The notes under the pieces are model-generated. The model made no database searches. It saw only the letters and a program-made list of their open reading frames with translations, and was not told where the DNA came from. From the NCBI GenBank assembly GCA_026874595.1, contig CM049320.1, positions 29,746,714-29,810,713 of the forward strand: DNA of 64,000 nucleotides, written 5' to 3'. A program made the translations under genes and the position numbers. This document shows, piece by piece, positions 4,628 through 35,499 of this stretch; position 1 is the stretch's first letter; the number at the start of each line of letters is the position of its first letter. Source of the stretch: Sipunculus nudus (lineage: Eukaryota > Annelida > Sipuncula > Golfingiida > Sipunculidae).

Positions 4628-6280
4628 TCAGGCTTCCTGAAGCCATCTGTAGAACTGATCCACATGATTGAGGGACTCTTCTCCTGGTTTTTGTCTGCTC
4701 TGCCACTGGAGGAAAGTGTTTTCAGATATCACGTGTTCATCATAAAAGACGTCAAAGAACTGTTGAAGGAGACCTGTAATGAAGAAAATGTAATATTCTT
4801 CATTAAATAACACAAATCAACCAACCTGGACTAGGTCCTGTTTTTTTTACATGAACAGTTTGAAAGAAAAAGTATCTCCCAGACGGAGCCAAACGAAAAT
4901 GAAAAACAGCCATGTGAAATATTCAGACGAATCGCTGCCTCTCAACACTTCTCATAAAATTAAATGTGCATTTATTTTATATATCCATTTATCTCCTTTA
5001 GATTCCACATATATTTAAATCATGAGGTTAGATGAGGATTCTAGAGACAGGTTAGCCTTCTCCACGTCCCTACTTTATTCTATGTCGTAAGGTAATAGTT
5101 TTCTTACCTGGAGGGTATTTTGGGGAGCATATCATTTCCTGTACAGTATATAATGCCTTAAGTTCTCGTTCCTGTTTTTGTTGCAAGTACCTCCTCAAAA
5201 GTTTCGTGCGCTTCTGGATTTTACGATAATCCAACATGTGTCCATCTTCCCCTGTGAGCATGCGGGTAGATAAACAGAAACCCGAAGCGGCCAGTCATAT
5301 GAATCCACAACACAATGTTATATATAAATTTTAAAACTATAAATCATATATTATAACACAACCAGATCATTCTAAAAGTTATAAAACATTAAAGCTCGCG
5401 GGTATATGCACGGGTGTGGATGGATTTGTATCGTGTATGCAAACCATACTATCCTTTGGGATATATACAGCTAATATGAGTTTGAGGTTTTAACGTTTAT
5501 ATCGTCTAAATTTCAGACTGAATAAAATTCTCCCATACCTTTAATAGCACCTTTACACACCGAGGATACCAGGGCCTGGATGAATGCCGCCCCCTTTTTC
5601 CTGGAGTCCGACACACTGACCTGAATGATATAAAACATGTAATTACTTTGTTATTTCTGAATTTTAAAAAATATTACTTAGGAGCCCTTATCCTCTTTTT
5701 ATACCACTTTCACATGTCTAACAATTTGCGCAAACACTTTACAGTCTAATTTATTACCAGAATTAAATATTATATTGCATCTTTATGTAAAAACTGGCCA
5801 AATTACACAGTAATGTTGCTTGGCGTATATGATTGAGCGAACTAGATAAGTTGTGATTAAGGGGCTCTTCTTGCATAAAGGTTTCGAATATATAAAAGTA
5901 AATACATAAAAGCTTTGGTCTTCTAAATAGTAGTCACAAATGATATACATTATTTATAGAAAAATAAAATACCTTATATATCATAATTTTAGATGCTTAA
6001 AATAATGCATAAATGAGGAAGGAAAGAATTCAATGTTCGAAAGAGCCTGTGCATTTCTAATTAAAGGATTCTATTACATTATATCCGACCACAAAATGTC
6101 TACTCAGAGCACTGAAACTGTATATTCACGGTAGATGGACGAATCATTCAACAGACTCACGTCAATCCAGTCAAAGATGTTCTCGTTTTCCATAGCTCTG
6201 TCCACAATCAGAGTATTGAGATTGGCCGACACCTTGTCCATGGCAATAGATAAGCCTCCCTCTAACGTCATCTCCAGGTT
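4628..6280 (-). other. Gene A W2 (HEAT-type) domain exons
   Basis: Four exons (6161-6280, 5539-5620, 5108-5251, 4628-4773) encode residues 875-1037. Landmarks are FDWID at the end of the first, [10 protein letters not shown] in the second, LLRRYLQQ in the third, and [16 protein letters not shown] in the fourth. The last is the first aromatic/acidic box of eIF4G-type W2 domains. In eIF4G this domain helps recruit MNK kinase. The protein stops at FYRWLQEA, so the acidic run that normally follows the second box is absent. Intron phases are 0, 1 and 1. The short upstream Met-containing extension of the last exon is intron. Confidence 0.85.
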
Positions 6281-6284
6281 CTTT

Positions 6285-6339
<55 letters not shown>

Positions 6340-7440
6340 GGGAGACAACACTTAATCTAATACTACAAACATTATATTTAATTTTAAAAAGTAATGACTT
6401 TAGATTCGCAAGAGGATCTGATAAATTTATCTTCCTCAAGAAATTCTAGATATTTGAACCCAAAAGAGACAAACTCATCTCTGAATGGTGATCAAATTAG
6501 GTTCAACTATTAACTTATCTGCACTGCCTAAACATATCTGCCAGATTTAAATTACTCAATAAACTGGTCAGTATAACTTTATTTTGAAAAAAAGAGTGAA
6601 CGATCAATTCATCACCCTATCTGTTAAACAGACTGAATAAAATGCATGCTGAATAGATTACATATAAATAATTATGCCCCATATTCTTGAGGAAATACCA
6701 ATTGGTATTAAATGTTACATTACAATAAACGATTTTCCACATAAACAAGTTGGATAAATCACCAATTTGAAGCCAAAAAATCCTTAAAAAATCAGTCTTG
6801 TCTTGTCTTTGATGGCCACCGAACAGAGCTTTTTTTTCCAAGTACACCTCAGCACATATAAAGCAGGGTCAATCCGGACAGATACAACCAAACAACATAT
6901 ACCCCGGATGTCAGATACGTCGAAGGGTCAAATGAACGGCTTTGCACAGAAATTCAACATTTTTGAACGCGTTCAAATAAATGCTTGCCATTTGCACACA
7001 GAGAAAAAAATGTTAAGTGTCTTAAGTTGGTCAAACGGGACTGCCTCAGAACTGCTAATAACACGTGGGTTCATTTTCATAGAAATAAAAGTGGAAAAAG
7101 GGGTGTTCCTGAAAAAAATAAAAGAGGATTAAGGGCATCATTTCCCTAACTCCTCAAAAAAAGAGTCACTATTTTGTAAAAGACAGGAATAATCTGTTGC
7201 ACCTTTTCGATGACGAACGCCTCTATATTTTCACCTAAAGGAAGTAACTCGATCCACATAAGTCCGGACGACTTCCACAGTTCCGTCATTGTCTTGGTGT
7301 CCTGAAAAGAAAACAGGAATTTTTTTTGTCTTATAATTCACGCTAAATACATATCAATGATTACCAAACTGGAACTTAACATACTCAAATTAAATGCTTC
7401 GATGGTTAGTTATCTATGTATCTATCTCATATATATATAT

Positions 7441-7486
<46 letters not shown>

Positions 7487-9764
7487 CATATCCATATCAA
7501 ATTATTGGCAATATTAACGATACAATGCCACTAATTAGCGGATTCAATTAATATCCATATTGTAACAGTATATGGATATACTGAGTGTTTTACAGGATAA
7601 AAACTAAAACTTACAAACTTAGGCATTTTATATTCAGACTCTTACCGTTTTCCGTGCAATGTGGTGCAAGATGAAAGCCGTGACGTCACCGGCTTTGTTA
7701 CACTGTTTCAGATGACGGAGTGATCCACGAAAAGACAGGAGGGGTACGGTTGAATCGTACACCAAGTTGCCGACTAAGTCACCAAGGTAACGCCAAATAT
7801 ACGGCACGTCAATGGCTAGTTCTTTTAGCCCCTTTACATTTTTCAGGAATTCATCCAGGCTGAAAAAAAAAACCAGATCATTTTCCAATTTATTTGTTTT
7901 AAATATCAAGGACACCCATTATTTCAACGAAATAGAAGAAGATATACGAGTCTTAATAATATTGAAGATTTTTCTTCCTGTCCGGTATTTGACAACACCT
8001 GTAGTTGGAAAATGGGAACCTGGTGAGATTGTTGTTAGTATGAAGAAGTATATATAAAACATTTAAATTTTCCCAGCATGCCCCTTGTCCTTGATTTACT
8101 TCTCCCTTAATCATTTCATCGGAGTTTACGGCCAAAAAGGTTTGGTTCTCAGGCACTTTTTTTCAGAAACCAAGCGGGCGGGTGTTTTTTTTTATTTTTA
8201 TTTTTTTTGTATGTTTCGATAAAAGATGTCAAATGATAAGGGAAAGCATGATAATAACAGATTCATTTTGCTAAACAGGTAAAAGCACTACATAACAAAA
8301 GAAAGTTTATCAAAATTGTATGATTTTATCTTCTTGAAAGACATATCCGAGCGACTCGAGCTCAAAATTGATAAGTTCCTATCGAAAATCAAAATAAAAA
8401 TATTTGATGCGGGGGTTTAAAATTGACGCGGGCGGTGCCTGAGGAAATATTTGTTTTGGCCTAATGACATGTAGGTATTTGTATACGTGTGCGAGAACAA
8501 TCCTCTTCTTATTTTATTGACTGAAGATTGAATATTTTACTCAATCTGGGACATATAACAATTAGTTTTACAATTTATGTCATGATGGACACCGATGAAT
8601 TTTTTTTACTACGATACTTGTTAATGTAATTTGATGACGTCAATCATTACCCAGGACACAAATAGAAGATGGTAGAAACTCAAAGAGTTCAAGATAAAAC
8701 GGTAAATATCCAATTCCATACCCTTTTATGTACTGCTGACATGTGATAACGTTCTCTTTGACTAGCTCATGGAGCAGGAGGCCTATTTTTTCTCTGGCAT
8801 CGTCAGACCGTTCAATGGCGTTGTTTATAGTACTAAACACAAACAGATGGACGGATTGATCCGACTGGAAGAACCTGACCACTCTGATAGCCTCCTTGTA
8901 ATAAAAGAATATAATTTGACTGTTAACAAATTTTATTCAAATTTTATGAAAACCTAACAATGTTAATATGGACATTAATATATGAATATGAATATGAACA
9001 ATGCGATGTCTGTTTATGGTAGATGGGAATACTAAAATGGCCGCAAACAATACTAAAATAAGACAAATAATCATTTGAACACGGCAACGCTGAAAAATTT
9101 ACATTCTTTAAGTGTACCTTGTATTTCAATATATGAACGACAGGCAAGGCAACGTAGCTTTCAAAATACACAACTGATTAATGGTTCGGGAAAAGAGAAC
9201 AAAATTTCCATCGAAAGAAGCATAGGAACACCTCTGAAACCACAACGTCAAAGAGAAGAAATGTCTTTCAATAGCCTTTTCACGTTACCTGTATATCGTC
9301 CCCCAATAGGTAGTCCCCAAGCAATGTGTCCGTTTTCAATTTGATTAGTGATGGTGTAAGCGGTTTGGATTCTGCACTGCCCGTTTCACTTCTGAAAATA
9401 CATTGAATAAAAGTGAGATGCACATCATTACCGTGTCTCAGATGTCTTTTTGGATTACTTTTTATCATATTGAAGCTATTCACTATCCTAAGAAATGCAA
9501 CTACTGAAATGTTACCCTAACAAATGTAAATAATGAAATGTTACGCTAACAAATGCAACTAATGAAATGTTACCCTAACATGCGTCCATGTGCAACACGA
9601 TAATGGTTATTTATTTTACCTGTCATCTTCCTCTTCTGTGTTATTTGTAGATATAATGTATTCCTGGTCTTTTAGTCTGGCGCCTGTCACACTATCAACC
9701 TGACTCACGGGGCATGTAGTCAGTCCTTCTCCACCTTGGCTGCCCTGGAATATTATATATATAT

Positions 9765-9850
<86 letters not shown>

Positions 9851-12800
9851 ATTCTCCTGCTAGAAACAACTGATAGAGCGCTCTGTGGTATGGGATGAGT
9901 TTTAGAGTTACACAAATACAGAAGAATAAATTTTTGCCAGAAAGGTTTAGTACTGCGCTGTTCAGTGGAAAATGTTGCCCTCATCAGGTAAGACTGTCTG
10001 ATGGTTGAACTGGTATGATATACTACTGAGTGGGTTTTTGCGTGGGTTTACGTGCAACATGTTCCATTCATCAGGTGAGATTACTCTATATTTGTTTATA
10101 TATACATGTATAAATATACAGTTAGTGATATATCGCCGTAGTTTATTTTCGAAGTTATGAAAGTATAAAATATGTCCTAAAGCATATTTCCCATATATTC
10201 CCGCACATATATGATGACCTAGTAACATCGTCAGAGAACACATATAATATTGGTATATTTAAAACATATTTACTCTACTGAAATGGTTAGATAGGCCTGC
10301 AAGAATCTTTGAGGTAGACATGTCGACCAACGAGCTAAATGAAGAAAAGAATTCAACTAAAAAAATACCTTTCTGATCCCCATCACATCTTTTATCAGAA
10401 GCCGTAGACGAGAAGATGTATCTACCTTATCTAGGTAGGTTTTGAGATAATCAAGATACACGTCTAATTTCCCCTGAAAAGAGGGATGAATTACGTTTAC
10501 GGTCCAGATATATAACAAACTTTCGTCATTGCCTCCGTCAGTGGTTAAAGCGATCATCCTCATTCGTGTGTTTGTTCACAACATAACTTACGCAATCATG
10601 AACGGAATCTCATGACATTTTCAGGGCATTTCGAGAATAGGCCAATAAAGAATCGAGTAATTTTGGAGTGGATCTGGCACATGATCGGGATTCAAGAAGG
10701 TCACCAAGAATTATTTGCAAATGTACAGTCACAAATGAACCTATGAATGTTGACCAAATTTGTAAATGCAAACATGTTTTTGGGAGCATCACGCAATAGA
10801 TATTTCCAAAATGACGGAGGCTTGCATTCCTTAGAATGTAGATTTCTAATTTAGATCATATGACATCACCGCCTAACGTTTTAGTTGTACTTACATATGT
10901 TATAATAATGCCTTTTATATGATGCATTTAATTTAAACCTTTTCAAAACTGTGCTACTTTTCGTACATTGTTACTATATATGATACTGTAATGTAGCTAT
11001 ATGGCGAGTTATTGAACGAGTCTAAGTTTACTATAATAAGTTAGTGTGTCAAAACACAGGGAGATAATGGCTAAACGTCACTTAAATAACCTTATATGAA
11101 TCACTGACCGAGTATACCACTGGCTATTCAAAAGTTATAAAATATATGTGAACCTAAAACACCAAACTGATCATGAAGACTGGAGAAAATAGAATATTTA
11201 ATAAAAAGTTTTCACACCTGAAACGTAGGAAAAATCTTGGCCAACAAGTTATGATACGTTAAAAAATGGGGCACCACTTATTTTAAACCAACACGACACA
11301 GCGCATGTTTCTTGTGATATATCACAAGCATTTGGTGTGTAAATCAATTTAAATGTTTAAGTACCATGTCTCTCTTGTAGTCAAGCTCCCGGCCCGTTTG
11401 GGTGAGTAGATGGCATATACATTCAATATCCGTTTCGTCCTCTGAGCTGCATAATCTTTGCATGTAATTGTGAATTTGGCTCTTTGTAATAACCTTTGCT
11501 TTAAACATTTCGCCTATGAACCTAAAAAATAAAAAAAATACACTACTGATCACAACTTGTACCTTTGAAGTCCCATATTTACATTTATTCAAATTTATGG
11601 ATTCAGAATTACCTCGATAGTTGATATTTATAAGAAACAATGACTTTCTTTCATATAGAGATTTTTAAACAAGACGGGAAAAGTTTACTCATTAAATATA
11701 TAATGTCAATAATCAGTTTAAGCCAGGGTAAAATAAATATGTCGAGGTGATGAAAAGAACCCTCGTGAAATTTAAGGGGAAATTATTGACTTAAAGATCT
11801 TGAAAAAATGTAAAAAAATAAATAAAACGTCTGCGTGTACCTGCATTTTGTATTTCTTATTAATGCAACCCTTTACTTTAAACTAGTGTGCGGATGTTTG
11901 TTATCGGTATTGATATCTTGCTAAAAGGCCATAATGAAAAAGGCTGTGAAAGCAATTCTTCATGCAAATGCTGATGGTAAATTTTATGCCTATTTGAATG
12001 GAAAGGACACATTTGTGCATGCAGCTGTGTTTAGTATTGGTAGAAAGTGCAGAGGGAATCTAGGGACGGAAACAAGGTACGTGACAACTCAGGTTTTAAA
12101 AGGCTATCGCTAGACATTTATCAAACCTTATATTCCCTATTGCTCTTCTGTGTGCGTCGAATGCGGAAATGTCATGCGTCGCTTCATCTAACAGGGTGAC
12201 GACATCAGCCTAGCAGCATACAATAAAGAATGTCACGCAGTATAAAACGAGATTCTCCGGTAATTATTTAGAATAATTGAGTCAATATTACTACTCAGGT
12301 AATTATTTATATTACAAAACAAGCCTTCGGAATTCAAGGCTACACGGTCAAACATATGGTTATGGAAGACGTAAAACCCCGTAAAACAAATATCTGAAAC
12401 AGTTACAGAATAACTCTTATAAAATCCGACTGGTCTGGTATAAAAAGAAAATGTGAAAGGCGAAGGCGTCAAAATAAACCTGCTATATATACGAAGAGTT
12501 GCATGTGGTTGTATCATTCATTATTAAAGGACGAGTACAGCATACTATTAAGGTCTACGGAGAGCATATACAACCCCGTACAGCATATACATTTTATCAT
12601 ACAGATTATACCTCGGTCTGGCTGCTCTTCAAAAGTTTCTTCTGACAAAGATCCAGCAGCATCCGTTTGAAACTAAAACACTCCCCAGATTCTTTTGTGT
12701 GTGTGGTAACCTAGATAACAACATTAAATATCCTTGAGCCTGCGACAAAATATGTTGTTTTATTGATATACTCTTATGTTCAAATACTCTCCCGTCGGGA

Positions 12801-13891
12801 CATATTGCGTTAATGACATGTTACGATCTTACTTTAGTGATATCAAACGAAAAATCAATGAAAAATGCTTCCATAAGGCCAAAAAAAATTAAAGGTATGG
12901 TTCTCAGGCACCGCCCGCATCAATTTTAAACCCCCGCATCAAAAATTTTTATTTGATTTTTAATAAAAACTTTCCAATTTTGAGCTGCTGCCGCTCCGAC
13001 ATTTCTTTCAAGAAGATAAAACCATACAATTTCCTTTGTTTTGTAGTGCTTTTACTTATTTAGCAAATTAAAAATGTTATTTTCATGCTTTCCCTTATCA
13101 TTTGACATTTTTATCGAAACATACCAAAAAATTTTAAATAAAAAAAGCGCCCGCCCGCATTGATTTCTGAAAAAAAGTGCCTTAGAACCATACCTATTTT
13201 TTATTTTGGTCTAACAGACATTTTAATCCTCTCCATATCTGAAATTCATTTTGGAATTTCATGCCTGTAGCCTCATCGGAATTTCAATACAAGTCTTGAC
13301 ACTTAATATTTTTAGGCCCGATATTATCTCATTTAAGTTTGGCAACCGTTCCCTGACTCTGCGACTCTGATTTAGGGTAGTATAAATTCAACTTACAGTG
13401 CTGAACACGATACATAATTTTGCGTACGTTCCACATACAGACGGTTCTGTAATTGCCTGCAACAAAAAACAAAGCATGAAATTATGAACTATTACAGATT
13501 AAAATATAGTATGAATTAGTGTATTAATCTACTCTACTTTAGATCATTGTAAATATGTTATAATCTAGCCCAGTAAAGTCGATGTATTTCAAGCCGGAGA
13601 TGACTAGACACTGGACATAATGTCTGCCCCCATTTGTAGCGTTATAATATAATTAACATAGTTCCCTGTCACGAGAATTGTTATTGTTACAAGGACGTAT
13701 TTAAAACATAATAAGATAAGTATACCCGTTCATGTATATAGTTGACAACTATTTCCAAGTTCTCCTGACTGCCGTACTTTAGTTTGCTGACCTCCTTCGT
13801 GTACTTCTTCATTTTGTGCATGGTAACTTTGTTCATGATTCTTTTTATCTTTTTGAGTAATTCCTAAAATAAAATACTACATCGCATATGT

Positions 13892-13952
<61 letters not shown>

Positions 13953-14120
13953 CGCTGAAGAAAAAACAACACTGTAAATTCATAACAGTCTGTTTCACGG
14001 GATGCGTCTCATTCATCAGGTAGGTGTTGTTTTTCTTCAGCGTTATACCGCTCTGGCCTAGTCTGTCGGCCATATGAGCACTTAACAACGAAGGGTAACT
14101 CTATACCTTCTAATTTACAT

Positions 14121-14158
<38 letters not shown>

Positions 14159-17100
14159 TTCGATACCAAAGCTCAAAATACCTATCGAAGCCATGCACAG
14201 ATAATGAAAAATAGCATAAGGGCCTGGGAAAAAAATTCTGACAGTTGTATTGTATATCAATTTAATCCACCCGAGTTCCCGTTGAGACGGAAGATTTAAA
14301 AGGTCACATAAATATTAGTTATCAGTCCCAAAACAATCAGATAGGTCTCCATCTAGATCAAACAATTGGAATATATTGGTGGCAACACTTGTCTAATAAA
14401 CAAATAATGTTATCCAAGATAAAAAAATAGGTAATTTAAGTATATCTAAAGATAATACATACATGTACATTATTTGTCTGAAATTCTGGAGCTTTCGTAT
14501 CAAATTTAACTGAAAATGGACTAAAATACCTAATCTGCATGTGATATCTGTAAAAACTATTGTTTATTAAAAAATGGTTTCTCGATCATTCCCACAGGAT
14601 TATGATAAATTAACGGAAACCCCCACGTAAAACAAAGAACGTACCTCTGTGTTAACGCTGTCAGCTGGGCTCTCTATGAGTTCAAGCGTAAATAAGCATG
14701 AAAGTCAAAACAAATATAAAATAATTTTTTATGGAAGTAACTGTAAGATATCACATACACAACACCTAACATTCATGTTATAAAAACTTTGTAAGATCTG
14801 CAGGCGCAAAAGTGAGTAAAAGTTTCGATATAACTAAGAACTACTTCCTTATTCACATTGTACACCATATAAAGCAACGCTTAATCACCTTCCGAGGGGG
14901 CCCGCAAATCTGACGTCACATTCGGCGGTGAAGTGCGCATCGGGTGAAGTAACTCTGAAAGAACCGCTTAGATTGACCCCTTTTTGAATCTAAAGTAAAT
15001 CTACTAAGATGAAGCCGGTAATCTGTTTACTATGCCTTGAATGTTTAATCTTTCTGTTAAATCAGTCGGGTAAAATGAACTTTATAATTAACGTCCGCCA
15101 TGATTCTGAACCATCTTAACCGAGCCGATATTTGATTCGCTGTGGTTACATATACAGGATATTATATATTGTAAGAATATATACAAAAACTTGTGCACTA
15201 TCTATAACACGAGTCATGTGACGATGATCCCAACTGGTGAGTTGTCACGGTTCTCATTTTCAATTTGCGTTGTTCCTGTTATATGCATTCTGATGTTAAA
15301 GTTAAAGCGTCTAGGTACGCCTATTCCTCACGACATCATAAAAAAGCTCTTAAATTTTAACTCTCCATTTTGCGACAGAGAAGATTAATCAGATTTACCT
15401 GTGTCATTCTTGCTGCTTTGAAGAAAGGGATTTTCCGAATGCTGCCATAATATATTGTCCACAAAGTCCTGTGAAAGATGTCAGATAAATCTCTGATAAC
15501 AAGAAACACCTAGATTTCACACCAAAGGTCAATTCAGAAACTGTGTTTATGGAACAACTAAATTCAACTAAACAACTCTAATCTTACAGGCTCTATTAGG
15601 CAGTATTGCCATACTTATTAATACATAATACTAATTATCATTTATTACATTTATTTTACCGAGTAGAACAAAGTTAAACTCTTCAAAGATCCCAAGGTCA
15701 GAGAGATACCTTGCATAAGTGAACAAATTACCCAGGGGTCATGACGCTCTGCTTGCTAGGAAGACATTTACAAAAGAAATTTCATCATCTGAATGCCAAA
15801 ATTTCTAGGTGGTATCCGAATTAAGCTGACACACAGACAGACGGATGACGGACAAAGAGTGATCGCTGTAGCTCAGATGACTTTCAGTCAGCTAAGCTAA
15901 ATACGGTATTTTTAATATACCCCATGATTGGTTGACTGAATATATAAACTACTTAAAGTAAAAACTAATCTCCGACGTAAAGACGAAAGAGTATGCGAAA
16001 TCCGTCGGTCCTGCGGACCTGACCGGCTAGATATCTGAGGGTCCGATAGGATCTCTAATTCAGCCGGACCTAATGTCCGCCTAAGAAAAATTTTTGGTAT
16101 TGCACAACTGGGTCCACTGGCCTTTTTCCAACGGTATCGTTTGATTCAGAATCCAGTTTTCTTAGATTATCAAGCATGTGTAAAAATATCTGCGTAAACA
16201 CTCCCACGTGCGTTTTCGTGTTGCTCGTTGCATTAGATCAGCAGACGGGCACAGAATAAAAAATAGTCTTGATACACTACTGCAGTTACGATATCTCTGT
16301 AAAAGACGAATTCGCCGAGAATCACACTAATTTTTGTTAGCATCGACAATTATTTGTGTGGCAATAATCGTGGTGGCATATTTACCAGAGACTAGACAAT
16401 TCGGTTCCCAAACCATTCACAAGATTTTCACAGTTTCGCCACGCGGGCAAAACACTGCAAAACCAGAAGAGTTTTCCCGCTGGTTTGATGAAATTAGATA
16501 TAATAATAGGCGCATATTGCTCTGAAAATTAGGCAAGTAGCGGTTAAACATCAACGAGAGGAAATCCTTTTCATTTGCTCATATATAATGTGAATGTTCA
16601 TCGCCTTTCGGCATAAACAGAGTTCTTTTCGTTATACATATTTGTCAACCAGCGATGTCAGATTCTGTTTTGACACCCAGACAGACCTCGGTGACTGACT
16701 GGTGATTTGCCACGCCTACGTTCCTGTGATTGGCTAAGTGACGACTCCCATTAGCCAGAGAGCCAATCAGATATTCATAGTAAGAATCTGCTCACGTGAC
16801 TTCATTCATAAAATTTTTGGCGGGAATGAGTGTGCGGATATCGGTCACGCTGTTCGGTAAAAAGCTCCGGGTGTCCATGAAACTAATTTTTCAACCAAGA
16901 CCACAAGGCCCTGAGTAAAATTGGGCATATAAAATATAATTTAATATTGATCCTGGCACTGACGAAGTCTAGGACGTGATCATAATCATAAGGTTAAATG
17001 TCCGATAAGATAAGAATTACGTGATTTCACGTTAACTTAGTGCCAGGGTTCTCGGAGCGGATCCTGTCTGTTACCACTCGCTTGAGGTCGTTTCTATTCA

Positions 17101-20100
17101 GAATTGATTCTGAGTATGATTCTGCGCTAGGTGCAAGTCTGGCCCGGGTATAAGAGCGAAATTTTGACTTACGCAGTCAAATAAAATATGTATGTAATTG
17201 TGCCACATAAGAATTATAATAAGCTAATATTTTCATCGCTGATTGTTATTTATATGTAAAAAGATTCTAAATAATATTCAAGTTCAATGATTTTATTGAG
17301 AAAGGTAAAAAATATTAGTAACAATAACATTTATTTTTGGAAAAGTCAGTTCACGTCACTATCAACCGCCACATATAAAATATAAACATGTTTACAAATT
17401 TGAGAGGATATTCAGTATGGATATACATTATAGGTGTAATTAACAGGTAAAATAATGCAGTTTAAGTTACAAACCAGGAGTAGGCTGAATAGTGCACGGA
17501 AGTCTTGCATACGACTAGATATCTCCGAATATGTTAAAAGAGGTTTGTTTTATTGATATTCATAAATTCACAATAAAACTATTGACACTCATTGTTACAT
17601 ATGCTTTCTGCTTGTTACCGTTCACTGAATTAACATACTTCACGGCAGGTCCTACAGAGATCTGACAGGACCGGCAATAGGTCTTCTGCAGCAGGACCCA
17701 CTGTCCTGCTGAGGACTGGAAGTTTTTGCAAACTCTGCGGGCCATAGTAATCATATTTTTTTGTCCTGATGTGTTCACTGTGCATACACACCAATTAATT
17801 ATCCAATTCTTGGAAATGACATTATTAGGAATGAAGAAGGATATTACCATTAGACCACAAAAAAATAAAAGGTATGGTTCTCAGGTACCTCTCGCATCAA
17901 TTTTTAAACCCCCGCACCATTTTTTTATTTTTTTATTTTGATTTTCAATGGAAACCTACCGAATTTGAGCTCCAGCCGCTCGGACATTTCTTTCAAGAAG
18001 GTAAAATAATACAATTTTGATAAAAATTTCCTTTGTTTTGTAGTGCTTTTACTTATTTAGCAAAATAAAACTGTTATTATCATGCTTTGCCCTGATCATA
18101 TGACATTTTTATCGAAACATACAAAAAAGTCTACATCTTAGAGAACATTATTGTTACAGAGAAATCTAACACGGAATTAAAGGAATCCTTATCATTGCGC
18201 TTTTACTCGTGTTTTGTTTTAAGATTGAATATTTCTGGATTAACTGACGGTTTAACGTTTTACAAGCATAACCGGTGTGTCCACTATCTAGACAAAGCAC
18301 ACCAGAAAATAACTAAACCAGTTTAAAGTAGCATATCACACTGCTATGTATCTTACAGTCACATATCCAACATGGCAAAATCAATTTTAAGCAAAAAACA
18401 TTTTTTTTTGCATCTGAAATGTTGATAAAGATATAAAAGTAAGTATATCCTGCTATTATTTGAGGATTTGGGCGTGGTCCGAATAAGTGTTATTCTGCTT
18501 TCAACTTTAACGTTACACGTCCCTCCCCATCAAACTCTCTTCATACAGAGAGATTCTCGCCTGGTGGCTGTCCTCGGAATACTTCCTTATCTCCCCGCAT
18601 CGTTATCGAACCCTGACAGGTTTTATTCCTCCGAGTTTCTCAAAACCGTTCATGGGGCCACTATTTTCGCACATACTAGAACCCGGAAGCCACAGGACGC
18701 ATATAGAAATCATGGGTAAACCGCTAGTTAACCTAAAGTGCGTAAATACCATTACTTAAATACCTTTCTTACTGTATCCACCTCCACTTCCTGCTGTTCT
18801 TTGCAGATTTCCAGGAGATCCTTTTCTGCTGATGCCACGTCAACCAGTTTTCCTGACACTGTGATAAAGTCCTTTCCCTGGTTCATCGGAGGAACGGATA
18901 TGTTCACTTTATACTGGAGAATCAGCTTCTTTCGGTAACAGTCGGCAATAAACCGATGGAATCTGTGAGGGACAGTGACCCTCCGTGTGGTGGAAATCCC
19001 ACTCTGAAATAAACATGAATATATGCGTGCTGTGTGTTATTATGTCCTTATGCGGCTAAAGGCCGCTTAAGGCCCATCCACAATGAACACTGCGCCGCAC
19101 TGCAAAATCATGTACATGCAAATACACAGTAACACTGGAGCCGTTTATTAAGTGCAGTATTTGCAGCGCTGCAAAGCCACGTGCACCACATCGTTTAGTG
19201 TGGCCGGGCCAATACGGAAGAACATTACCGGTACTCCTTTACTGGTGTAACTGCCAAATTACTTTTTCCAAAACCTCACCACTGATATGCTGTTGTCACG
19301 TACCTGAAGGTAAGTCAACATTTATTTGATCACACGGCAGTATTTACCCACGGGCTGGTCTAATGTAAAACTGATGTACTATTTTTTGTACAGCACATGA
19401 GAAAAAGTCATTTATTATTAATAATAGGAGCAAACTGTAAGAAGAAACATCAGTATATGTGTTTTCTCCTCGAGACTAGCTTGAACATAACCTGTACCTT
19501 TCACATGTAGACTTATGGTTATGGGGATGGTTTTTGGAGTTGCAAGTCCCGGTGGAAAACCCCGCCGGTGCATTTACGGCATAATGGCGAAATCTCTTAT
19601 GAACCTCCGTTCTAATGCATGGGGCATGGACAGCTGAGCGGTAAAACGCTCGGCCTTCTCCGCTGGCGACCCGAGTTCGGTCCCAGGTGGTGTGAGTGGG
19701 TTGTGCCAAGTGGCCCGGCAAAGGTCGGTGGTACTCTCCGGGTTCTCCGGCTTCCTAAACCTCTATCACTACGATTTTCAACTCTATCAGTATCTTTTAT
19801 TATCGCCTTAAATATCCCGCTGTACACTGATTCAATCTGGCGAACTTTGTCTTGCTGAGGGAGCCAGCGCTGGTCGGACTTTCCGGAGACCTGTGACTGG
19901 CTCGAGCGCCGACTTCACTTTCAGTCAGTCAGTCGGTTCTAATGCCTGAACAACAAGTTATGACTTATGTATTATTCCTAACCCGGTAAAGCTCGAATAA
20001 GATAAGGCTTAATGATATCATTCTTATCGTATATAAACCTTCATTCTCATCCAACAGACAATGCCACCGACAGACTATTGATCTATCCTGTGAAAAGAAA

Positions 20101-23100
20101 GTTTCATTTAAGCATTTTTTTACATCTTGAACACAAAAAACTTTGACCCAGATGCAGCGACAGGAAAGGATAAACGCACACTATACATACCACATCTTTT
20201 TGGACGCTGTATATACGACGCTTTGCCTCTTCAACATCAGCTTTCCTTCCAGTGATGGTGATTACGTCACTCTCACAGTTCCGTCCCGGTAACGTGATAA
20301 CTGTGTTTGTTTCGTTGCGTATCTTTTTTACGGTCACACCATTTTTGCCAATGATATGCCTGTGGATTTCTTTTGGAATGTGAACTTCGGCAGTATGGTT
20401 ATTACCAATCTGTAAAAAAAGCAGGTTTGCCAGCTATAAAATACTAATTGAATATAATAAAACAGTTTGTTGCTGTAAGTGATTTAATAGACGACCGAGA
20501 AAAAAAAGCAGGCTGCATTGTAAACTTTAAAAGCCAGAGCCAGATCTTATCAGCTAGCGAGATTTTGAATGCCTTAATATGTGCATCTGACCACGGAGTT
20601 TATCATTTCAATTATTCAATTCCATACCGTAATTTTAACTACACTTTTTTAGGTTTAATGTCTTTTATTGGTTTAGTATCATAGTTAATGTATATTAATG
20701 GATTATGAGGATGTTTTATCTAGCCTAAGTAATATCTAATTGTTTGTCTTAATTTTTATTTAATGAATATTTTCTTTCTCATAGTCATTTTTATGCAAAT
20801 GCTTGCTTGTAACAGCGTTTTAGAGCACAACACTGTGGATTTTATGCTTAACAAAATAAAATATTATTATTTTTATTATTATTATTAGGGTAAGAGATGG
20901 ACACAGCAAGAAGCAACATAGAACATTTTGACTTGCTATTTTATCGATGATTTCCAGCATGGACTGTTTAGCCTTGACCACTCCGGCAGTAGGTCCCTCA
21001 ATCATGATGCTATCAGGGTCTTCTGGACATGGAATTCTTATTGATACTCCTGTCGTCTCTTTGATTCGATTAACTGAAAAAAACATTGGTTTTATTGAAG
21101 TATAACTTTCACCACATATTGTGGCATCTTATTATGTTAAATGTACAATGTAGAAGTTTAAAAGCCGTTAAAAAGTCTACATGCTTTCTCTGTGCCGACA
21201 CTGAAATAGAGGACCATAAAAGCGCACTCCAAATTGGGACATAGAACTACATATTTGGCTAGATTCTTTTGAGTTAAATGCAGTGCATATTTCATTCAGT
21301 ACTAAAGATTTCCATAAACGTTAAACAGGGCCTCTCTGTTACAAATTGAAATGTAGTACTGATACATAAAAGCTGAAAAAGATATTAACAATATTATAAA
21401 TCTTCAGGGAGTCGGAACTTGTTCGAAATCTAAAATTTATCTAAACAGTAAAGGGTTAAACCTACCTCCTGATTCATAATCAATGACTAAATAGTGAAAT
21501 TATTTTCTTTATCATCAGAAAAATAGTAAACCTTAAATCTTCTCTAGATACTGGAGACAGCATTGACCATGTAGTTTAATATCGTAATTGTTCCTATAAT
21601 TATATCCAGTATATCCTTTTTTTTATTATAAATACTTTAAAACTCAAGGATCTATTTAACGTAATCATGGTCAGTTACTAAGATATATAACAGATCCTTA
21701 TAAGTGCATCAAATGTAATACGTAACATGACAACAAGAAACTCGTTTTTTTAATGAAATGTCGGTTTTTACATGTTACTTTTTCAAAATCTTGCGTTGGC
21801 CCGTTCAAAAAGATATCGATTTATCAGCTATTCTTGTATTATTACCTGAACATATTTATTTTATTCAAATGTGGACAGATGTAAGCGTCAAGTGGTTTAA
21901 TGACGTTTACATGAAATGCAACATTATTTTAAAATATTAATATGACTGATTATTTTTACATTACACCCAATTCGAATCGTATCTCCCTTACCCGCCTTCC
22001 TCTTTATAAACTTCTGGTACCTCCGCTCTAATGCCAGTTCTACTGTGTCCGTTTTCTTCAACTTGGATAAACAAAAAAGACAACATAAAGAAAAAAATAC
22101 AGAATAAACAGAGAGCCTATATGTATGCCTCCGCCAAAACCCTAATCAAAATTTTCTGTTTACTACACGAAAAACTGTCAGCTCTGAAGAGCCAAAGCAT
22201 CCACATTTAAAACAATTCATTTAAATAAGGAAAATATTGTCATTAAGATTTCATTCATAATTGACCCTTGTTTGTTACCCTAGCCCTCCACAACATTTCA
22301 CTAAAATTCGCCCATAACTTTCTGTGTAATTTGATGAGTCAATCAGATTAACTGGCAAACAAAGAGATAAACGATACCTCGGCCCCTTACAGAGGTAAGA
22401 TTAGTAATGTAATACGCCTGTCCAGAAAAAAAATGTTACGTCTCGGTATAAAAGGCGCACGTTTTAAACTACTGGTCATAACGTTTATTGCTGGGACATT
22501 TTTATGGAGAAAAACAGACATATCAGAAAGGAAACTTTTCAGTTTATAATTGACATTGTTTTTCTTTCTATATAAGCCATACACAATCCACAGTTTTTCT
22601 TCCTAGGAACTTGAGACTATATGGACCTCACATCTGTCCACAAAATGTGATTTTCAAATCTGCAACCGTTTCTTTTTTTTTTTTTGGTTTGGTAAACCAC
22701 CGACGAAAATTCATAACACAATAAGACAGGAGAACTTATATAAAAAAAACTTGTATGGTGAAATTCAATTACATGCACATAAGACTGAAGTATTTAAAGT
22801 TTCTTTTGTGTTCTTACCATCGATAGTGCTCGCTCAAGTTTGTCTTTCGGTCTCGTCTCATAGATATCGTATGAAAACTGTTCCTGGGAAAAACAAAGAA
22901 GTTAAAAGTTCATACGTTATGAATGAATAGTTCTTTGTGTAGCCTACATGACTGTGTCATAGGTGAATTATAATATCCCTTGAAATCTGAATTTTAAGGG
23001 ATGCAAGCCTCCGCCATGCCAGGGGTACCTATTGTGGGATGCTCCCCAACCCATGTTTGCATTCACTAATTCGGCCCGTATTCCCAAGTTCATTCGTGCA

Positions 23101-25291
23101 TGTCTGCCGGTGGCAATGATTACCGCAAAGTAGTATATACGAGGCCTGAACTGGACAAATAGGGCCAAACAGAAACGTAAAAGACAAGACCTTGTACTTA
23201 AAGATGATACGCTACCATCATGAAAATAAAGGAATTCTCTAAATTGGCTGACAATGCACTTCAAGGCAAAGGAGTAATTTCCTATTATTAAGTGCGATAA
23301 ACGATTTCAAAGTAAAACAAATCCAGGGCGTTACCATTAAAGGTTCACATTGTGTGGTTTATCTTACTCATTTTACAACTTGAGACTTTGGTCAAGCTTT
23401 TCCTAATTATAACACTGTCACACACTCAGAAGGTTTGTACTCGTATTGTAAACAAATTTAGCCAGTATTGTAAATCATTCATTGACCTTACCTCTGAATC
23501 TTCTTCTAACCCCAAGGCCTCAACTTCTTCTTCAAGATCCAAGACACCAGCTGGTGTAGACATCTCACCCAAAATAAGCTGATACATTCGTTTCTGTATA
23601 AACAAGGGAATAAAGGAATGAATCTATGCACTCACATTCTATAAATAATTTCACGTGTCCGTGAATAAGGTTATATTATCTTCTGCTGGAAAGTTTTATC
23701 CAAATAATTTCTGCATCCCGTCTTCTTAATAAAAACAGTTCTTAATCTTTTCTTATCACAGTGCAGATTTACTCGTAAGTTACATTATTTTTTATAATAA
23801 TTACATATTTTATGTATAATTTACGATTTATTTTGTAGGTCAAATTATTCAAATTATTGAAACCTACAATCCTCCCTATCAAGATATCTGGTATTATTCT
23901 TTATAGACTCAACTAAATCAGGTGTACTTAACACTTAACAATTTCATTGCTTCTAGTCTGAATTAAATAAAATAAAGTATAATATTTTAGACGAAAATAA
24001 AGTTGTCTGAAAAAGTATGAAAAAAAAATAAAAAGTGACCCATGGGTCATGACACTCAGCTGGCTAGGAAGACATTCAAAAGAGGAATTTTATCATCTGA
24101 TTGCCAAATTTTGTAGGTGCATATCCCAATTCAACTGTAGCAATGAAAGTTCTTCAAAATCAACAAGATGAAAAAGTTCATGACAATATGTCGAGCCATT
24201 CCCATGAAATCTATCTTTTTTTTGTATGCAGTGAGCTGAGCTGAAAAATGACCAAGCAAATTTTTTAAGGACATCCCTGGATGCCAAGTAAAAAGGATAA
24301 TATCCCTGTATGTCAAGACAGAAAATTCTAGGTCCAACAGTAAAGCTTTGTACCATATCTGCCTGGGTGCTTAAAAATGTTTTTTAGCCAGTAATATAGG
24401 TCACCATGACCTAATTTCAGGTTTCCATGGAGATTGCCCAAGACTTCCCTGTATATTATAACTGAACATGCGAGGGCTAGCAAATACAATTTGTATCCCG
24501 TGTGACTGACTGGGTGTTTTTAGACTGTTGTTCACAAAATATAAGTCATCATGACCTAATTTAAGGTTTACATGGAGATTTGCCTTGGATCTCCCTGGAT
24601 GTATAGATAGAAGTTTCTAGGTATAACGGTTAGGATTTGTGAACTGTTACCACCATACGGGCGGACTTCTTCATCTGAAGGTATCAAAAACAGGACAAAA
24701 ATGTGTAAAAATACAGTTTGCTATCTTGAGGAAATGAGGAAATCCTCCATGATCAATATGCAAGGAAAGAATCATGGCAATCAATGTATTAGTTATTCAG
24801 ATACTGGAGCTTTTGTATTTAATTTTTATTTATTCCGGGGGAGGGATACTTTCGAGTCCCATAGCTAGGAGGATATGGGTCACAGTGACATGATTTCCTG
24901 TTCCTGAGGAGATCTTGTATGGACCTCCGTGGGGTTTCTTTATAGGGTTCTAGGCCCATCGGATACAATGTGTGCCCCATCTGACTGGGTGCTCAAAATC
25001 ATGTTTTCAGCCTGTAGTTTGCAAAATATTTTAACATGACCTGTTTTCCGGTTTCATAAGAGATAGCCTAGGACTTACTTGGCCGAACACTTAGAAATTT
25101 GTCGGTCTAACGTCAGTGTATTTGCCCTGTTCACAGACGGACGACGAACAAAGAGTGATCGCTATAGCTCAGATTCACGACTTACAGTCAGCTGAGCTAA
25201 AAGCAATGCAAAACAGCGCATACTTTGTACATCTTGCAGTATACGATACTTCTTATTAAACTTTTTATATATATATATATTTATATAATTT

Positions 25292-25323
<32 letters not shown>

Positions 25324-25900
25324 TTATATTTATATAGTGATTTTGTGAAACATTGGCAGGATTGCAGAAAACAAAATCGTTGCAAATAAAATGATACTAT
25401 TAAGAAATTTAACAGAGTCTACATCTATACTGCACTCATTGGTTCAGAAAAATAGTCTATAATCACCACCTGAAGATGATGATTTTAGAAAAAAAAGTAT
25501 AAATACAGTATTAACCCTTAAAAAAGCATTAAATGGTACAAAAGGAGTCTTGCCTGAAAAAAGTATGTCACATTTAAAATAAGGACAGTGGCAACACTGT
25601 AATGTTCTCCTAAAATAAACTAAAATTGCATTTTCTAGTCTTTCATATTTTTCCTATTCAGTTACATCCAAGTACCTTTTCTCCGGTGACTTTTTTTATG
25701 GCCGCTATTGCTTTTTGCACCTCCTTCTCCTCACCAGCCACGAGTATGTGTGACCGCTGGTCAGTTGGTACAGGAGCTTGAATCATCACAGAGTACTCCT
25801 CCATCCATCTTTTAATATTCTGGCCATCAGGACCACAGACAAAGCCATGTAACTCCTTTGGGATTGGCACCCGGTCAAAGATTGGCTGGGAAGTATCCAT
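4628..25900 (-). CDS. Gene A: KH-repeat/eIF4G-like fusion protein (KH x4 - MIF4G - MA3 - W2), about 1,037 aa
   Basis: I read 25 coding exons: 25676-25900, 23492-23593, 22818-22883, 21992-22061, 20925-21073, 20191-20409, 18764-19003, 17639-17734, 15399-15468, 14645-14673, 13726-13863, 13397-13456, 12612-12710, 12127-12209, 11365-11521, 10369-10473, 9620-9744, 9289-9391, 8722-8894, 7646-7859, 7203-7301, 6161-6280, 5539-5620, 5108-5251, 4628-4773. All joins keep frame and use GT-AG. The start at 25900 has an in-frame TAA nine bases upstream. Residues about 8-72, 135-200, 210-272 and 283-345 are vigilin-like KH domains; 423-636 MIF4G; about 695-874 MA3; 875-1037 W2. eIF4G proteins scaffold eIF4A and eIF3 on mRNA. 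Here I see no YxxxxL-type eIF4E site and no PABP site, so a cap-independent, RNA-tethered role is inferred. The donor of exon 5 (AAT/gttcta) is weak. The join between exons 8 and 9 is the least certain, and two genes remain possible. Confidence 0.75.
6288..6339. repeat. TA/GA compound microsatellite beside a splice acceptor
   Basis: A TA run followed by a GA run. On the transcribed strand this reads CT repeat, AT repeat, then the acceptor of the gene A exon beginning at 6280. The CT part may serve as the polypyrimidine tract. Confidence 0.9.
7428..7486. repeat. TA microsatellite in gene A intron
   Basis: Two TA runs separated by an AAATA interruption, in the intron between exons 7646-7859 and 7203-7301. 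Confidence 0.9.
8125..8465 (-). repeat. R3 MITE, copy a (inverted)
   Basis: About 340 bp in the gene A intron between 7859 and 8722. The left end reads GGCCAAAAAGG then TTTGGTTCTCAGGCAC. The right end reads GGTGCCTGAGG and finishes TTTTGGCCTAA. The interior matches copy b at 12873 in reverse complement, including the CCCCCGCATCAAA and TTCTTTCAAGAAG segments. Confidence 0.75.
9620..9744 (-). other. Gene A linker exon between MIF4G and MA3
   Basis: This exon encodes a low-complexity, hydrophilic linker ending in EEEDDR (about residues 637-678). Vertebrate eIF4G has a much longer disordered stretch here. The acceptor lies directly beside a TA microsatellite of roughly 95 bp. Confidence 0.75.
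9753..9849. repeat. Long TA microsatellite beside a splice acceptor
   Basis: Nearly pure TA for about 95 bp, ending within about 10 bases of the acceptor for the gene A exon starting at 9744. Confidence 0.95.
10561..10852 (+). repeat. R2 family element, copy a
   Basis: Starts near CATTCGTGTGTTTGTTCACA and ends near GACGGAGGCTTGCATTCCT. It aligns by eye with the copies at 34760, 59565 and 61695. It lies in a gene A intron and has no coding capacity. Confidence 0.65.
12873..13214 (+). repeat. R3 MITE, copy b (best preserved)
   Basis: The best-preserved copy. An inner inverted repeat AGGTATGGTTCTCAGGCAC at 12894 pairs with its complement near 13180-13198 with one mismatch. The inverted repeat extends outward to AAGGCC on the left and GGTCTAA on the right, giving roughly 35 bp per arm. 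It sits in the gene A intron between 12710 and 13397. No transposase is encoded; this fits a MITE of unknown superfamily. Confidence 0.8.
13895..13951. repeat. TA microsatellite in gene A intron
   Basis: Pure TA run about 30 bp upstream (in transcription) of the acceptor of the first MIF4G exon at 13863. Confidence 0.95.
14120..14158. repeat. CA/TA compound microsatellite
   Basis: A CA run followed by a TA run in the intron between 13863 and 14645. Confidence 0.95.
15729..15903 (+). repeat. R1 family element, copy b (deletion derivative)
   Basis: Only about 175 bp long. It joins an R1 head (CCCAGGGGTCATGACGCT) almost directly to an R1 tail (GGACAAAGAGTGATCGCT, then the terminal hairpin at 15869-15899 and TAAA). 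The DR1 array is missing. It lies in a gene A intron and shows that head plus tail alone persist as a unit. Confidence 0.75.
16729..16826. promoter_or_regulatory. Promoter-like cluster inside gene A
   Basis: Within 100 bp there is an ATTGG (16729-16733), a CCAAT (16763-16767), an E-box CACGTG (16793-16798) and an E2F-type TTGGCGGGAA (16817-16826). It lies in the intron separating the KH exons from the MIF4G exons. It could drive a KH-less transcript of the eIF4G half. There is no direct evidence of transcription start. Confidence 0.35.
17853..18130 (+). repeat. R3 MITE, copy c (3' truncated)
   Basis: Begins TTAGACCACAAAAAAAT then GGTATGGTTCTCAGG, matching the left arm of copy b, and aligns to it until TATCGAAACATAC. 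The right inverted repeat is absent. Gene A intron. Confidence 0.7.
19619..19935 (+). mobile_element. tRNA-derived SINE with 10-bp target-site duplication
   Basis: The head resembles a tRNA: an A-box-like CAGCTGAGCGG near 19631 and a B-box-like GAGTTCGGTCCC near 19673. Downstream are a conserved-looking GGTTCTCCGGCTTCC segment and a short CAGT repeat tail. GTTCTAATGC occurs immediately before (19609-19618) and after (19936-19945), a perfect 10-bp duplication that sets the 317-bp element. It lies in a gene A intron. RNA polymerase III transcription and LINE-mediated mobility are inferred from the class. Confidence 0.8.
22995..23115 (-). repeat. R2 family fragment, copy b (inverted)
   Basis: Reads ATGCAAGCCTCCGCCAT and continues through GGGATGCTCC and CGTATTCCCAAGTTCATTCG. 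This is the reverse complement of the 3' part of the R2 copies. Gene A intron. Confidence 0.55.
24036..25205 (+). repeat. R1 family element, copy c (about 1.17 kb)
   Basis: Head: perfect 14-bp palindrome TGACCCATGGGTCA (24036-24049) followed by TGACACTCAGCTG. Tail: ACGACGAACAAAGAGTGATC, hairpin about 25165-25199, then TAAAA. The interior lacks the DR1 array. It carries instead several diverged copies of an 'ATAGGTCACCATGACC...TTTCAGGTTT' type segment. Gene A intron 25676/23593. Confidence 0.72.
25266..25340. repeat. TA microsatellite cluster
   Basis: Interrupted TA runs directly downstream of R1 copy c, in a gene A intron. Confidence 0.9.
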
Positions 25901-30316: not shown

Positions 30317-30496
30317 TTATTCTTCCTCCGTTTCGTGTAACCAGCTCAGGAACCCCTGGACAGAATCCACGGCTGTCTGTTGGCCATCTTGTTTGCTCTC
30401 GCTGGTCGCCCACCTGTTGAATGCCTCCTCTGATATCACGTCCTCATCATACAAAACGTCATAGAAACTCTGGAGCAAACCTTGTGAGTGAAAAAT

Positions 30497-30553
<57 letters not shown>

Positions 30554-33500
30554 GACTTTAAGGAACGCGGGGGTAAGCGTCTGTGCGTCTGTAAAGTTTG
30601 AAATCTCTTTCGGGCGCTCGGTTATGGGTATCTTGGCGTCCCATCGGAATGTCTGGCTAAAGTAACGACCCAACAAGGGTGCTGGCAATTTTAACTGACC
30701 CTGACATTCAAAATGTTTAGAAAATCATATAATGGTACAATATTTCAGCATATTGAATTAAATTATAGATAAGGCTACAGCATTTAACAAAAACCTCTCC
30801 TCGTAAAATTCTCCAAAATCCAATTTAACTCTCCAAAATTTTGGATCAAGCATCACAGACTCTTCATTTCATCTTACTGAAAGTCCTTTTGAGTGGTTGT
30901 AAAGAGTACTTGAGTAGTTCGAGTCAGAATAGTTCTAACGGTTTAGTCATTAATCGAATCCCCGTGTAGACCGGCAAACTGGGATATTTAAGCAGTTATT
31001 CGTAGTTGTTAATACTGCCTTTAAATTATATTTAAAATTTGTTTCTTGCCAATATAAAAATAGGTGCTCTTCCCATTTATGGGTCATACTGCACCTGAGT
31101 GTAATACATGTAAATCCGTTATACATGGGTAAATAACAGGAACAAGTGACCCATGGGTCATGACGCTCAGCTGCCAAGCATGACCTGTGACATCATGGAC
31201 TGAGATTCACAACTTCCCGTCAAATTTTGAAGAACCAATTTGCCAATTTGTTGAAAATTTTCTATGACAACAGAAATATATATCACCTATGTCTGGTTAA
31301 AACACAGTGAATTGATGGTCTGAGGAAAATGCATGATTGTTAAGCTATCAGGAACTATTCCAACAACTTGCTTGAAACCTGTCAGTCTCAAAAGGAACAC
31401 CACAAAGGGCAAATATAAGATCAAAATATATAGCAAAAATCAAGGAAATACATGCAAGAATTATTGAGAAACAGGTGCTTCTGTATGAATTTTTATTCAA
31501 TACAAGCCAACTGTACTGCACTTTTATAAATGATGGTAATATTTATTCAGAAATATTTGACCCAATCCTTTACAAGATTACATAAATATACATCCAACTG
31601 CATTCACTTTAACTGTTCTTGAGATAATATGATCAAAAGGAATTAAAAGATGGTTGCCTGGTGGCCATATTGGAATTCTGACAAGTCTGAAATCAGACAA
31701 CAAACATTCTCTAAATCGGACCAAACATTAAAGAAAAATTACTGAAACTGCCCTGAAGAAAGAATTTCTAAGGTGGCTAACTGGCAGACATAATGGATTT
31801 CTGACAAGTATGACATTTGATATCCCACATTCTCCAATAAGAGACCAAACTTGGGGCAAACTATCCAGTAATAAATGCCCAAATAATTCAAAAGGCATGT
31901 CCAGGCCCTCATATCAGATTTATAGATATGCAATTGTAAAAAGTGTAAGTCCAATATTTTTTATTATCACTCTGCTTTTCAATGGGGTCAGCAGGGTAGG
32001 TAAACTGCCAAACCTGAAAGAAAAGAAATGCAGAAAGCATGACTAAGAGTCTTGAAATAAAACAAAAAGCCATCCTAAATCAAGGTACACATCCACATAT
32101 TATGAGAACAAACACTTGCTTTTATATGTGGTGATATATATTAAAATATTCAGATATCTAGGAAACTAAGTTTATTGCTAGGATTCCATAAAATAATCTG
32201 CAAAATGTTCCCATCATCTTATAAATCAGTAGCTAAACCTTAATACTATACTCTCATAGTCTTAATGCCTGGCTGAAGCATTTTGACAACAGTGTTTTTG
32301 TTATGAAGTAACGAGGTACTTATCACTGAGCCTTATCACTTAATAGGCTGATACAAAAGGGAGTCATATGTCACCAGTGTCACTCACAATTACAGCCACA
32401 CAGGGAGATGTACCAGCTGGAGTGGAATGGTTATATATACAAGAAAAATAGAGATGGTCTATAAAATAAGTAATTGTGAACATCCCTGACCTATGACCTT
32501 GGCCTTTTGCCCATATATCAACTGGATTCTTTCTAAAGGATGGGTAACTACTGACCACTTAAATCTGGTGTAATTACTTGGCAACCAAAGGGTGAATAAC
32601 TTTGACCTGCAACCCTTAACCAGCTGACCCCAAAATCAATAAGTTATTTATTCAAGCAAAAAGACCCATAAATATGAAGTTTGAGTCAAACTGAGTGATG
32701 CATAGATGTGGCATATGTGAAAGACTGAAGGTTTGGGTTGAACAGTTACACTTGAAATATGCTCACAAGCATTTAGAACAATTAAATATTGTGACCTTGA
32801 CCTTTGACCTTTGACCTCAACATCAATAGGCTTCTTCCCGTATTGGTAGGCAAGCCATATATGACAGATGGAAGGTACAGATTGAAAAGTTTGCCTGAAA
32901 ATGACTCCACGCAAGAAGTGGGTGCTGTGAACTTGACCTTTGACCTCAAAATCAACAGGTCTTTTCCCCTGTTGGCAGAGAAGCGATATCAGTGCTGGAA
33001 GGTTTGGAATGAAAAGTCTAGCTTGAAATGTGTCCACTACCTTTTCAAAGAAGTGGATCCTGTGACCCTGACCTTTGACCTTATGACCTCAAAATCTATA
33101 GGATTCTTCTCCAACTTAGTAGGTGAGCTATATGTGAAAGATCAAAGAATTGGGATGAAAGGGTTGGCTTAAAATGCATCCACAGGCTTTTCAAAGAAGA
33201 GGCTCCTGTGACCTTGACCTTTGACCTTTTGACCTAAAAAAAAATAGGGTTCTTCCCCTGTTGGTAGGTGAGCTGTATTTGAAAGATGGAAGGTTTGGGA
33301 TGAAAATTTTGTCTCAAAGAGTTATTTCTGGGGGTTGCAAACACTCCCCATAACTTCGAGAATATAGGTCGCAGTGACCTAATTTCAGGTTTGCAAGGAG
33401 ATCTTTTTATAACCTCTAAGACTGCATAGGGTTCATGGCCCTAGCCCCTACGGTTACGATTTGTGCCCTGCTAACGGACGGACGGCCGGCCGGACGGACA

Positions 33501-33895
33501 GACGGAAGGACGCCGGACAAAGACCCATCGCTATAGCCCAGCATGACTGAAAGTCAGCTGAGCTAAAAAGTACTTCAGGAATTTACACTATTAATGCGGA
33601 TTAGAGTCATGGTTACATGGAATCTGGTCCGAGTCGGGTAATGCCTATCGCTTTCGGGTGTTCTTACCCAAATTCCGCTTGCCGTTAGTCTCGTGATATA
33701 TACATGTATGTGTTAGATGTGTGTGTGTATTCACAGGTTAAACGTGCAGATTTCTTCAGTGTTTGCTTTATGTACCTGGAATGATCCGATTTGAAACAGA
33801 CAACACGTACGTTCATACATACATACGTATATTTTTTTTATTCTGTGGCAGGTCAGACAATCTTGTCTGAACGGGCTACCCAGTATAAATATGTT

Positions 33896-33927
<32 letters not shown>

Positions 33928-34369
33928 TCAGATATGCATCCAAAAGACCATGAAAAGTATAATATAGGATAATAATTAAATGCTCACGTCAAAGACACAA
34001 GATTTTGCTCTGTCAGTTCCTGTACAAAATCGAAGGTTTTTTGTTGTCTAAATTTATCCAGTAACCTTGATAAATGTATTTTAACTTTACTGAGAGGTTT
34101 ATGCTAGCGAAGTTCATTTTAAATTCAGATACACAGAACCCATAGGCTTCCAGTATGAGCTGAGTGATGCTTAGAAAAATTTAAAATAAAGGATCTGATT
34201 ACATGCTGAGACAGAGGAAACTGACCCAAAATAGTATTAAACATTTGAACCAAGATGTATAGGTTTGTCAGTGATAGTTGTGTTTAAAGATATAGGAGTC
34301 GAGCATCCCAAGCAACAGAGACATAATTGCATCTGATGTATTAAACTGTAACCCTGGACAGCATATAAA

Positions 34370-34429
<60 letters not shown>

Positions 34430-35461: not shown

Positions 35462-35499
<38 letters not shown>

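Follow-up and report, generated by a model that had tools for sequence, protein, structure and literature searches.

To our knowledge, the described scaffolds of the eIF4G type depend on the cap complex, PABP, eIF3 or structured leaders to reach messenger RNA (mRNA). DAP5 (eIF4G2, also p97 or NAT1) is presented in PMC6076257 and PMC9977666 as a relative of eIF4G that lacks an eIF4E site. For vigilin (HDLBP), the accessible part of PMC9117268 reports EIF4G1 among the enriched partners in human cells and contacts of the human protein with 18S ribosomal RNA near initiation factors. Here we describe a gene of Sipunculus nudus in which elements of these families appear to be joined. It lies in a stretch of 64,000 nucleotides (nt) of contig CM049320.1 (C15:29746714-29810713, in a genome of 1.43 Gb), hereafter the window, to which all positions without prefix refer. 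The evidence supports well a chimeric gene, with a new architecture made from two known families. Neither a KH-bearing eIF4G-family protein nor a vigilin-eIF4G fusion was seen in the titles and abstract openings of the open-access literature among the matches listed; a database entry may exist.

The gene was modelled on the minus strand from position 25900 to 4628 as 24 coding exons whose phases are all compatible. The spliced model holds 1005 codons without an internal stop, with AG at every acceptor and GT at every donor unless the exon 5 donor is GC, and an in-frame TAA stands immediately upstream of the exon 1 ATG. A first version had 995 codons and was extended to 1005 after the acceptor of exon 12 was set at 12710 by homology with the parent exon. 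The Pfam scan was performed with the 995-residue version, in which KH_1 (E=1e-36, three stretches), KH_Vigilin (E=3e-13), MIF4G (E=9.9e-31, residues 393-594), MA3 (E=9e-15, residues 654-763) and W2 (E=3.2e-12, residues 929-995) are all above the curated cut-offs. The domain order in the spliced model is four KH repeats, MIF4G, MA3 and W2, the last three succeeding each other as in the eIF4G family within what would be one protein. Such a scan had been proposed in an earlier, sequence-only reading of the window, which had placed the eIF4G core after the KH domains as is now found. That reading also counted 25 exons on one strand with compatible phases. Strand, span, order and phases have stood and the count is revised to 24; an intron drawn at 17639-15468 implied an exon ending near 17640, which falls inside an interspersed repeat and which the present model does not need.

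The vigilin gene of the same genome is located at C15:50.31-50.33 Mb; 20 kb of it were read and 15 KH repeats were typed, the degenerate first one included. When the genome was searched with the KH half, the best 20 matches fell in the gene studied here (7), in the vigilin gene (10), in a locus on C8 (2) and in a weak place on C2 (1). The best vigilin repeats for KH1 to KH4 are 3, 6, 8 and 13, in that order, each scoring above the next repeat (73.9 versus 47.0, 59.3 versus 37.0, 94.7 versus 50.4 and 48.9 versus 35.8 bits). KH1 is encoded together with the start codon by exon 1 (25676-25900), the two halves of KH2 by exons 4 (21992-22061) and 5 (20925-21073), KH3 by exon 6 (20191-20409, 60% identity to repeat 8) and KH4, identified through its match to repeat 13 (E=1.7e-11), by exon 7 (18764-19003). 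Exon boundaries common to vigilin flank repeat 8 on both sides and mark where repeat 3 ends and where repeats 6 and 13 start, and the phase-1 intron within KH2 is also present in vigilin repeat 6. At the far boundary of repeat 13, vigilin reads AGA/gtaaga and the window ACA/gtaaga at the equivalent position (18773); an alternative exon 7 donor, AAG/gtattt at 18764, lies 9 nt later and scores better against the gene's own donors, both being phase 0 and in frame. Exon 5 also has two donor candidates, 20937 (GC, by homology) and 20925 (GT), both weak and both in frame. As judged from repeat identity and exon boundaries, these comparisons show the front half to be a shortened duplicate of the vigilin gene in this genome.

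Exons 2 (23492-23593) and 3 (22818-22883) link KH1 to KH2. The end of exon 3 is weakly like vigilin repeat 4 (E 3.8 and 5.1, not significant) at a position that fits the repeat order; if exons 2 and 3 were an eroded repeat, this end would stand in the place of repeat 4. A search of the window with the vigilin repeats gave no further place below E 0.3, with scattered weaker ones at E 0.36-5, and relics of the missing repeats sought in the gene gave weak matches only. Compared with vigilin, which is an array of about 15 KH repeats, the window protein has four, two of them without a GXXG loop, and ends in an eIF4G core.

The loops divide the four domains into two pairs. KH1 (GPDG) and KH3 (GKNG) have an intact GXXG, as in type I KH domains, and both match Pfam KH_1. 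KH2 and KH4 are without GXXG, each being three residues shorter than its parent repeat at the loop. With GXXG kept in two domains and absent from the other two, RNA binding is not to be expected of all four. In place of the KH1 loop, the genome's own vigilin repeat 3 has GPNN, so that the fused KH1 has a textbook loop where its parent has none. For human vigilin, the accessible part of PMC9117268 describes a KH 5-9 construct whose RNA binding nearly equals that of the whole protein; this construct would cover the parents of KH2 and KH3, provided that its KH0 is our repeat 1.

The rear half of the gene matches exons of an eIF4G gene and of partial tandem copies, which lie some 0.7 Mb away (C15:30.43-30.56 Mb). 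MIF4G starts (HEAT1) in exon 10 (13726-13863), continues through exons 11 (13397-13456), 12 (12612-12710) and 13 (12127-12209) to its core in exon 14 (11365-11521) and ends in exon 15 (10369-10473). Exon 16 (9620-9744) is a linker, exon 17 (9289-9391) runs from linker into MA3, and exons 18 (8722-8894) and 19 (7646-7859) complete this domain. They are followed by the region between MA3 and W2 in exon 20 (7203-7301), by the C-terminal HEAT region in exons 21 (6161-6280), 22 (5539-5620) and 23 (5108-5251), the last of which runs into W2, and by the W2 end and stop codon in exon 24 (4628-4773). Window introns 9-14 and 17-23 were compared with those of the full-core copy at C15:30562277 to 30545363, introns 15 and 16 being left out. 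All 13 coincide both in phase and in their place in the alignment, a shared intron structure that again marks the gene as one of the eIF4G family; at intron 12, around which the sequences align poorly, the donor of the parent was deduced and its phase taken from the acceptor. In MA3 (53% versus 30% identity), in W2 (52% versus 37%) and slightly in HEAT1 (38% versus 34%), the window gene resembles the own eIF4G more than human eIF4G1, which suggests that the duplication of this half is younger than the split from vertebrates. These introns and alignments show the rear half to derive by duplication from the eIF4G gene of this genome.

The two proteins differ at their front. An eIF4E-binding motif has the form YxxxxL-hydrophobic, and the own eIF4G gene has the usual front, including KKQYDRSFLL, which we take to be such a motif. 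None was found in the 995-residue version of the window protein, whose three Y....L strings lie inside the MIF4G, MA3 and W2 ranges and are not followed by a hydrophobic residue after the L. Residues before MIF4G had no match in the own eIF4G region when the 995-residue protein was searched by tblastn against C15:30425001-30605000 at E up to 10. The presence of KH exons throughout the eIF4G cluster was rejected on the same search, which returned nothing before residue 391, and on the places hit by the best 20 genome-wide matches of the KH half given above. Compared with canonical eIF4G (eIF4G1/eIF4G3), the order of MIF4G, MA3 and W2 and the compared introns are kept, whereas the N-terminal region is replaced by KH repeats and no eIF4E-binding motif was found. 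The sequence-only reading had recognised a vigilin-like front that takes the place of the eIF4E- and PABP-binding part in an eIF4G-family protein; both ideas are supported, each half being traced here to a parent in the same genome.

DAP5 shares with the window protein the MIF4G-MA3-W2 arrangement without an eIF4E site, but it is not preceded by KH repeats. Among solved chains, eIF4G1 fits far better than eIF4G2 both for MA3-W2 (4.6e-55 versus 1.6e-16) and for MIF4G (9.3e-30 versus 2e-12), which together with the introns common to the own eIF4G gene argues against DAP5 orthology. DAP5 N86, at the other interface, would be the N of ILNKLTP; if this mapping is right, it is kept here as IMNKVTM. 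The residue aligned with DAP5 R295, by means of a primer printed in PMC10746786, is an arginine here too (SRLRLL); the accessible part of that paper places R295 at the eIF4A interface.

Other eIF4G copies were seen on the contig. On the minus strand, exon-like pieces of a further C-terminal (W2) copy occupy 30332-37959, upstream of the gene, and the piece 30332-30481 passes the W2 cut-off. The region C15:30425001-30565000 is a tandem array of full-core and partial copies, some matched by C-terminal exons only. Upstream of the eIF4G exons seen, a 1214-residue open frame (C15:30600336-30603977, minus strand) is perhaps a mobile-element or retrocopy protein.

The vigilin and eIF4G parts meet across intron 7 (15469-18763, phase 0), which is followed by two short linker exons, 8 (15399-15468) and 9 (14645-14673). 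These amount to 99 nt and are frame-neutral. Since both parental introns that would meet at the joint are phase 0, the reading frame continues across it whether or not these exons are included. Exon 8 taken with its edges finds only itself in the genome. Exons 8-9 contain no in-frame ATG, and directly upstream of exon 8 stands an in-frame TGA; at the other side of the joint, vigilin repeats 14 and 15 are missing, so that neither half has its parent's usual end. An interspersed repeat extends in intron 7 from about 17737 to at least 16450, i.e. at least 1.3 kb of 3.3 kb. With the stretch 16450-17300, 39 of the 40 matches listed were other copies at 90-96% identity; with 17301-18763, the same proportion were other copies (92-98%), each confined to the part that runs from about 17737 to lower positions. 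A CpG-richer stretch of the intron (16001-17500), much of which is within this repeat, was considered as a possible promoter, and an inverted-repeat search of the intron gave nothing of use. From the phases and the missing ends, we infer that one mRNA would run across the joint; a separate KH-only isoform might also be made. By eye, three introns of the gene (about 8140-8440, 12870-13180 and 17840-18100) seem to share a similar short element, inverted in part.

Divergence from the parents was counted over five KH segments and 12 of the 15 core exons (exons 13, 16 and 17 were left out). Synonymous divergence (pS) reached 0.74 over 289 KH codons and 0.76 over 500 eIF4G codons and is saturated, while nonsynonymous divergence (pN) was 0.31 and 0.33 respectively, and no stops were met. 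The saturation of synonymous sites at such pN values shows that both halves have evolved under protein constraint, of a similar degree as far as these counts tell. A chance juxtaposition of open frames was rejected by the domain E-values, the shared introns and this constraint.

Taken as a whole, we consider it somewhat more probable than its alternatives combined that a single chimeric gene, made of in-frame vigilin and eIF4G duplicates, acts as an eIF4E-independent scaffold in the manner of DAP5. A shortened vigilin duplicate carrying KH repeats 3, 6, 8 and 13 and, behind it, a duplicated MIF4G-MA3-W2 part of eIF4G would have been joined in frame via a phase-0 intron. With their RNA-gripping GXXG loops, KH1 and KH3 would anchor chosen mRNAs or the 40S subunit, and KH2 and KH4 would serve as structural spacers. 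MIF4G would recruit eIF4A, promoting initiation on KH-held RNAs without an eIF4E site, and by analogy to DAP5 the MIF4G-MA3-W2 part as a whole would bring eIF4A and partners. A more ambitious version, which we hold tentatively and at rather less than even confidence, is that a trimmed KH set, selected for RNA binding, took over from the cap and poly(A) tethers of eIF4G. The product would be an initiation scaffold guided by sequence, and the fusion a natural record of joint action of vigilin and eIF4G.

A number of observations speak against a single scaffold of this kind. At 3,295 nt, intron 7 exceeds all other introns of the gene in length, and it contains 8 AATAAA motifs on the coding strand, 3 of them within the repeat; a stop lies three codons past exon 7, where a KH-only transcript could end, and the first in-frame Met of exon 10 could start a rear protein at the cost of nine MIF4G residues. 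No significant homology was found for exons 2, 3, 8 and 9, and KH4 (exon 7) taken alone reaches 18.2 bits, below the KH_1 cut-off of 21.5. The own eIF4G HEAT1 is 64% identical to that of human eIF4G1, and the window HEAT1 has diverged from it to the 38% given above; exons 12 and 15 are the least conserved, with 24 and 26% identity to the parent, and this divergence may weaken eIF4A binding. Finally, a human vigilin KH0-KH4 fragment, which includes the parent of KH1, yielded no high-affinity RNA according to the accessible part of PMC9117268. The features of the joint and the early Met of exon 10, together with exons 8-9, for which no homology was found, would fit two adjacent genes or separate transcripts, one of KH repeats only (exons 1-7) and one for MIF4G-MA3-W2 (from an unseen first exon or the exon 10 Met), never spliced together. 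We regard this as decidedly unlikely, given that a terminal part of the parent gene is absent from each half, that the phases fit with either exon 7 donor and with or without exons 8-9, that intron 7 owes some of its length to a repeat whose other copies are 90-98% identical, and that nonsynonymous divergence is similar in both halves. Debris is common in the region, as the partial eIF4G copies nearby attest, and the locus might be imagined as a dying pseudogene derived from two old partial duplicates; 1005 codons without a stop, intact splice sites and pN near 0.32 in both halves at saturated synonymous sites make this highly improbable.

The chimera may also be real and work in the opposite direction, as a repressor or competitor whose KH domains bind mRNAs and which ties up eIF4A (or eIF3) unproductively. 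The model has no eIF4E-type motif, and its MIF4G half is farther from the own eIF4G (38%) than MA3 and W2 (53% and 52%), as if productive initiation were no longer selected. We judge repression to be a serious alternative but rather unlikely, since MA3 and W2, perhaps needless for a simple competitor, are kept above the Pfam cut-offs and are the better conserved domains. If the favoured reading, a single gene encoding an initiation scaffold, is true, the vigilin-derived KH domains are an RNA address built into the scaffold itself, and the role of vigilin at initiation becomes directly testable. The gene would, moreover, unite two proteins whose association in human cells is reported in PMC9117268, which suggests functional cooperation.

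Two further features were observed in the window. A plus-strand open frame of 266 residues (63135-63935) is coiled-coil-like and has a weak L1 ORF1-type match below cut-off. On the minus strand, open frames at 42852-51592 resemble exons of a receptor gene of the immunoglobulin superfamily; the frame at 46440-46700 does not reach the I-set and V-set cut-offs, and the one at 51230-51520 passes both.

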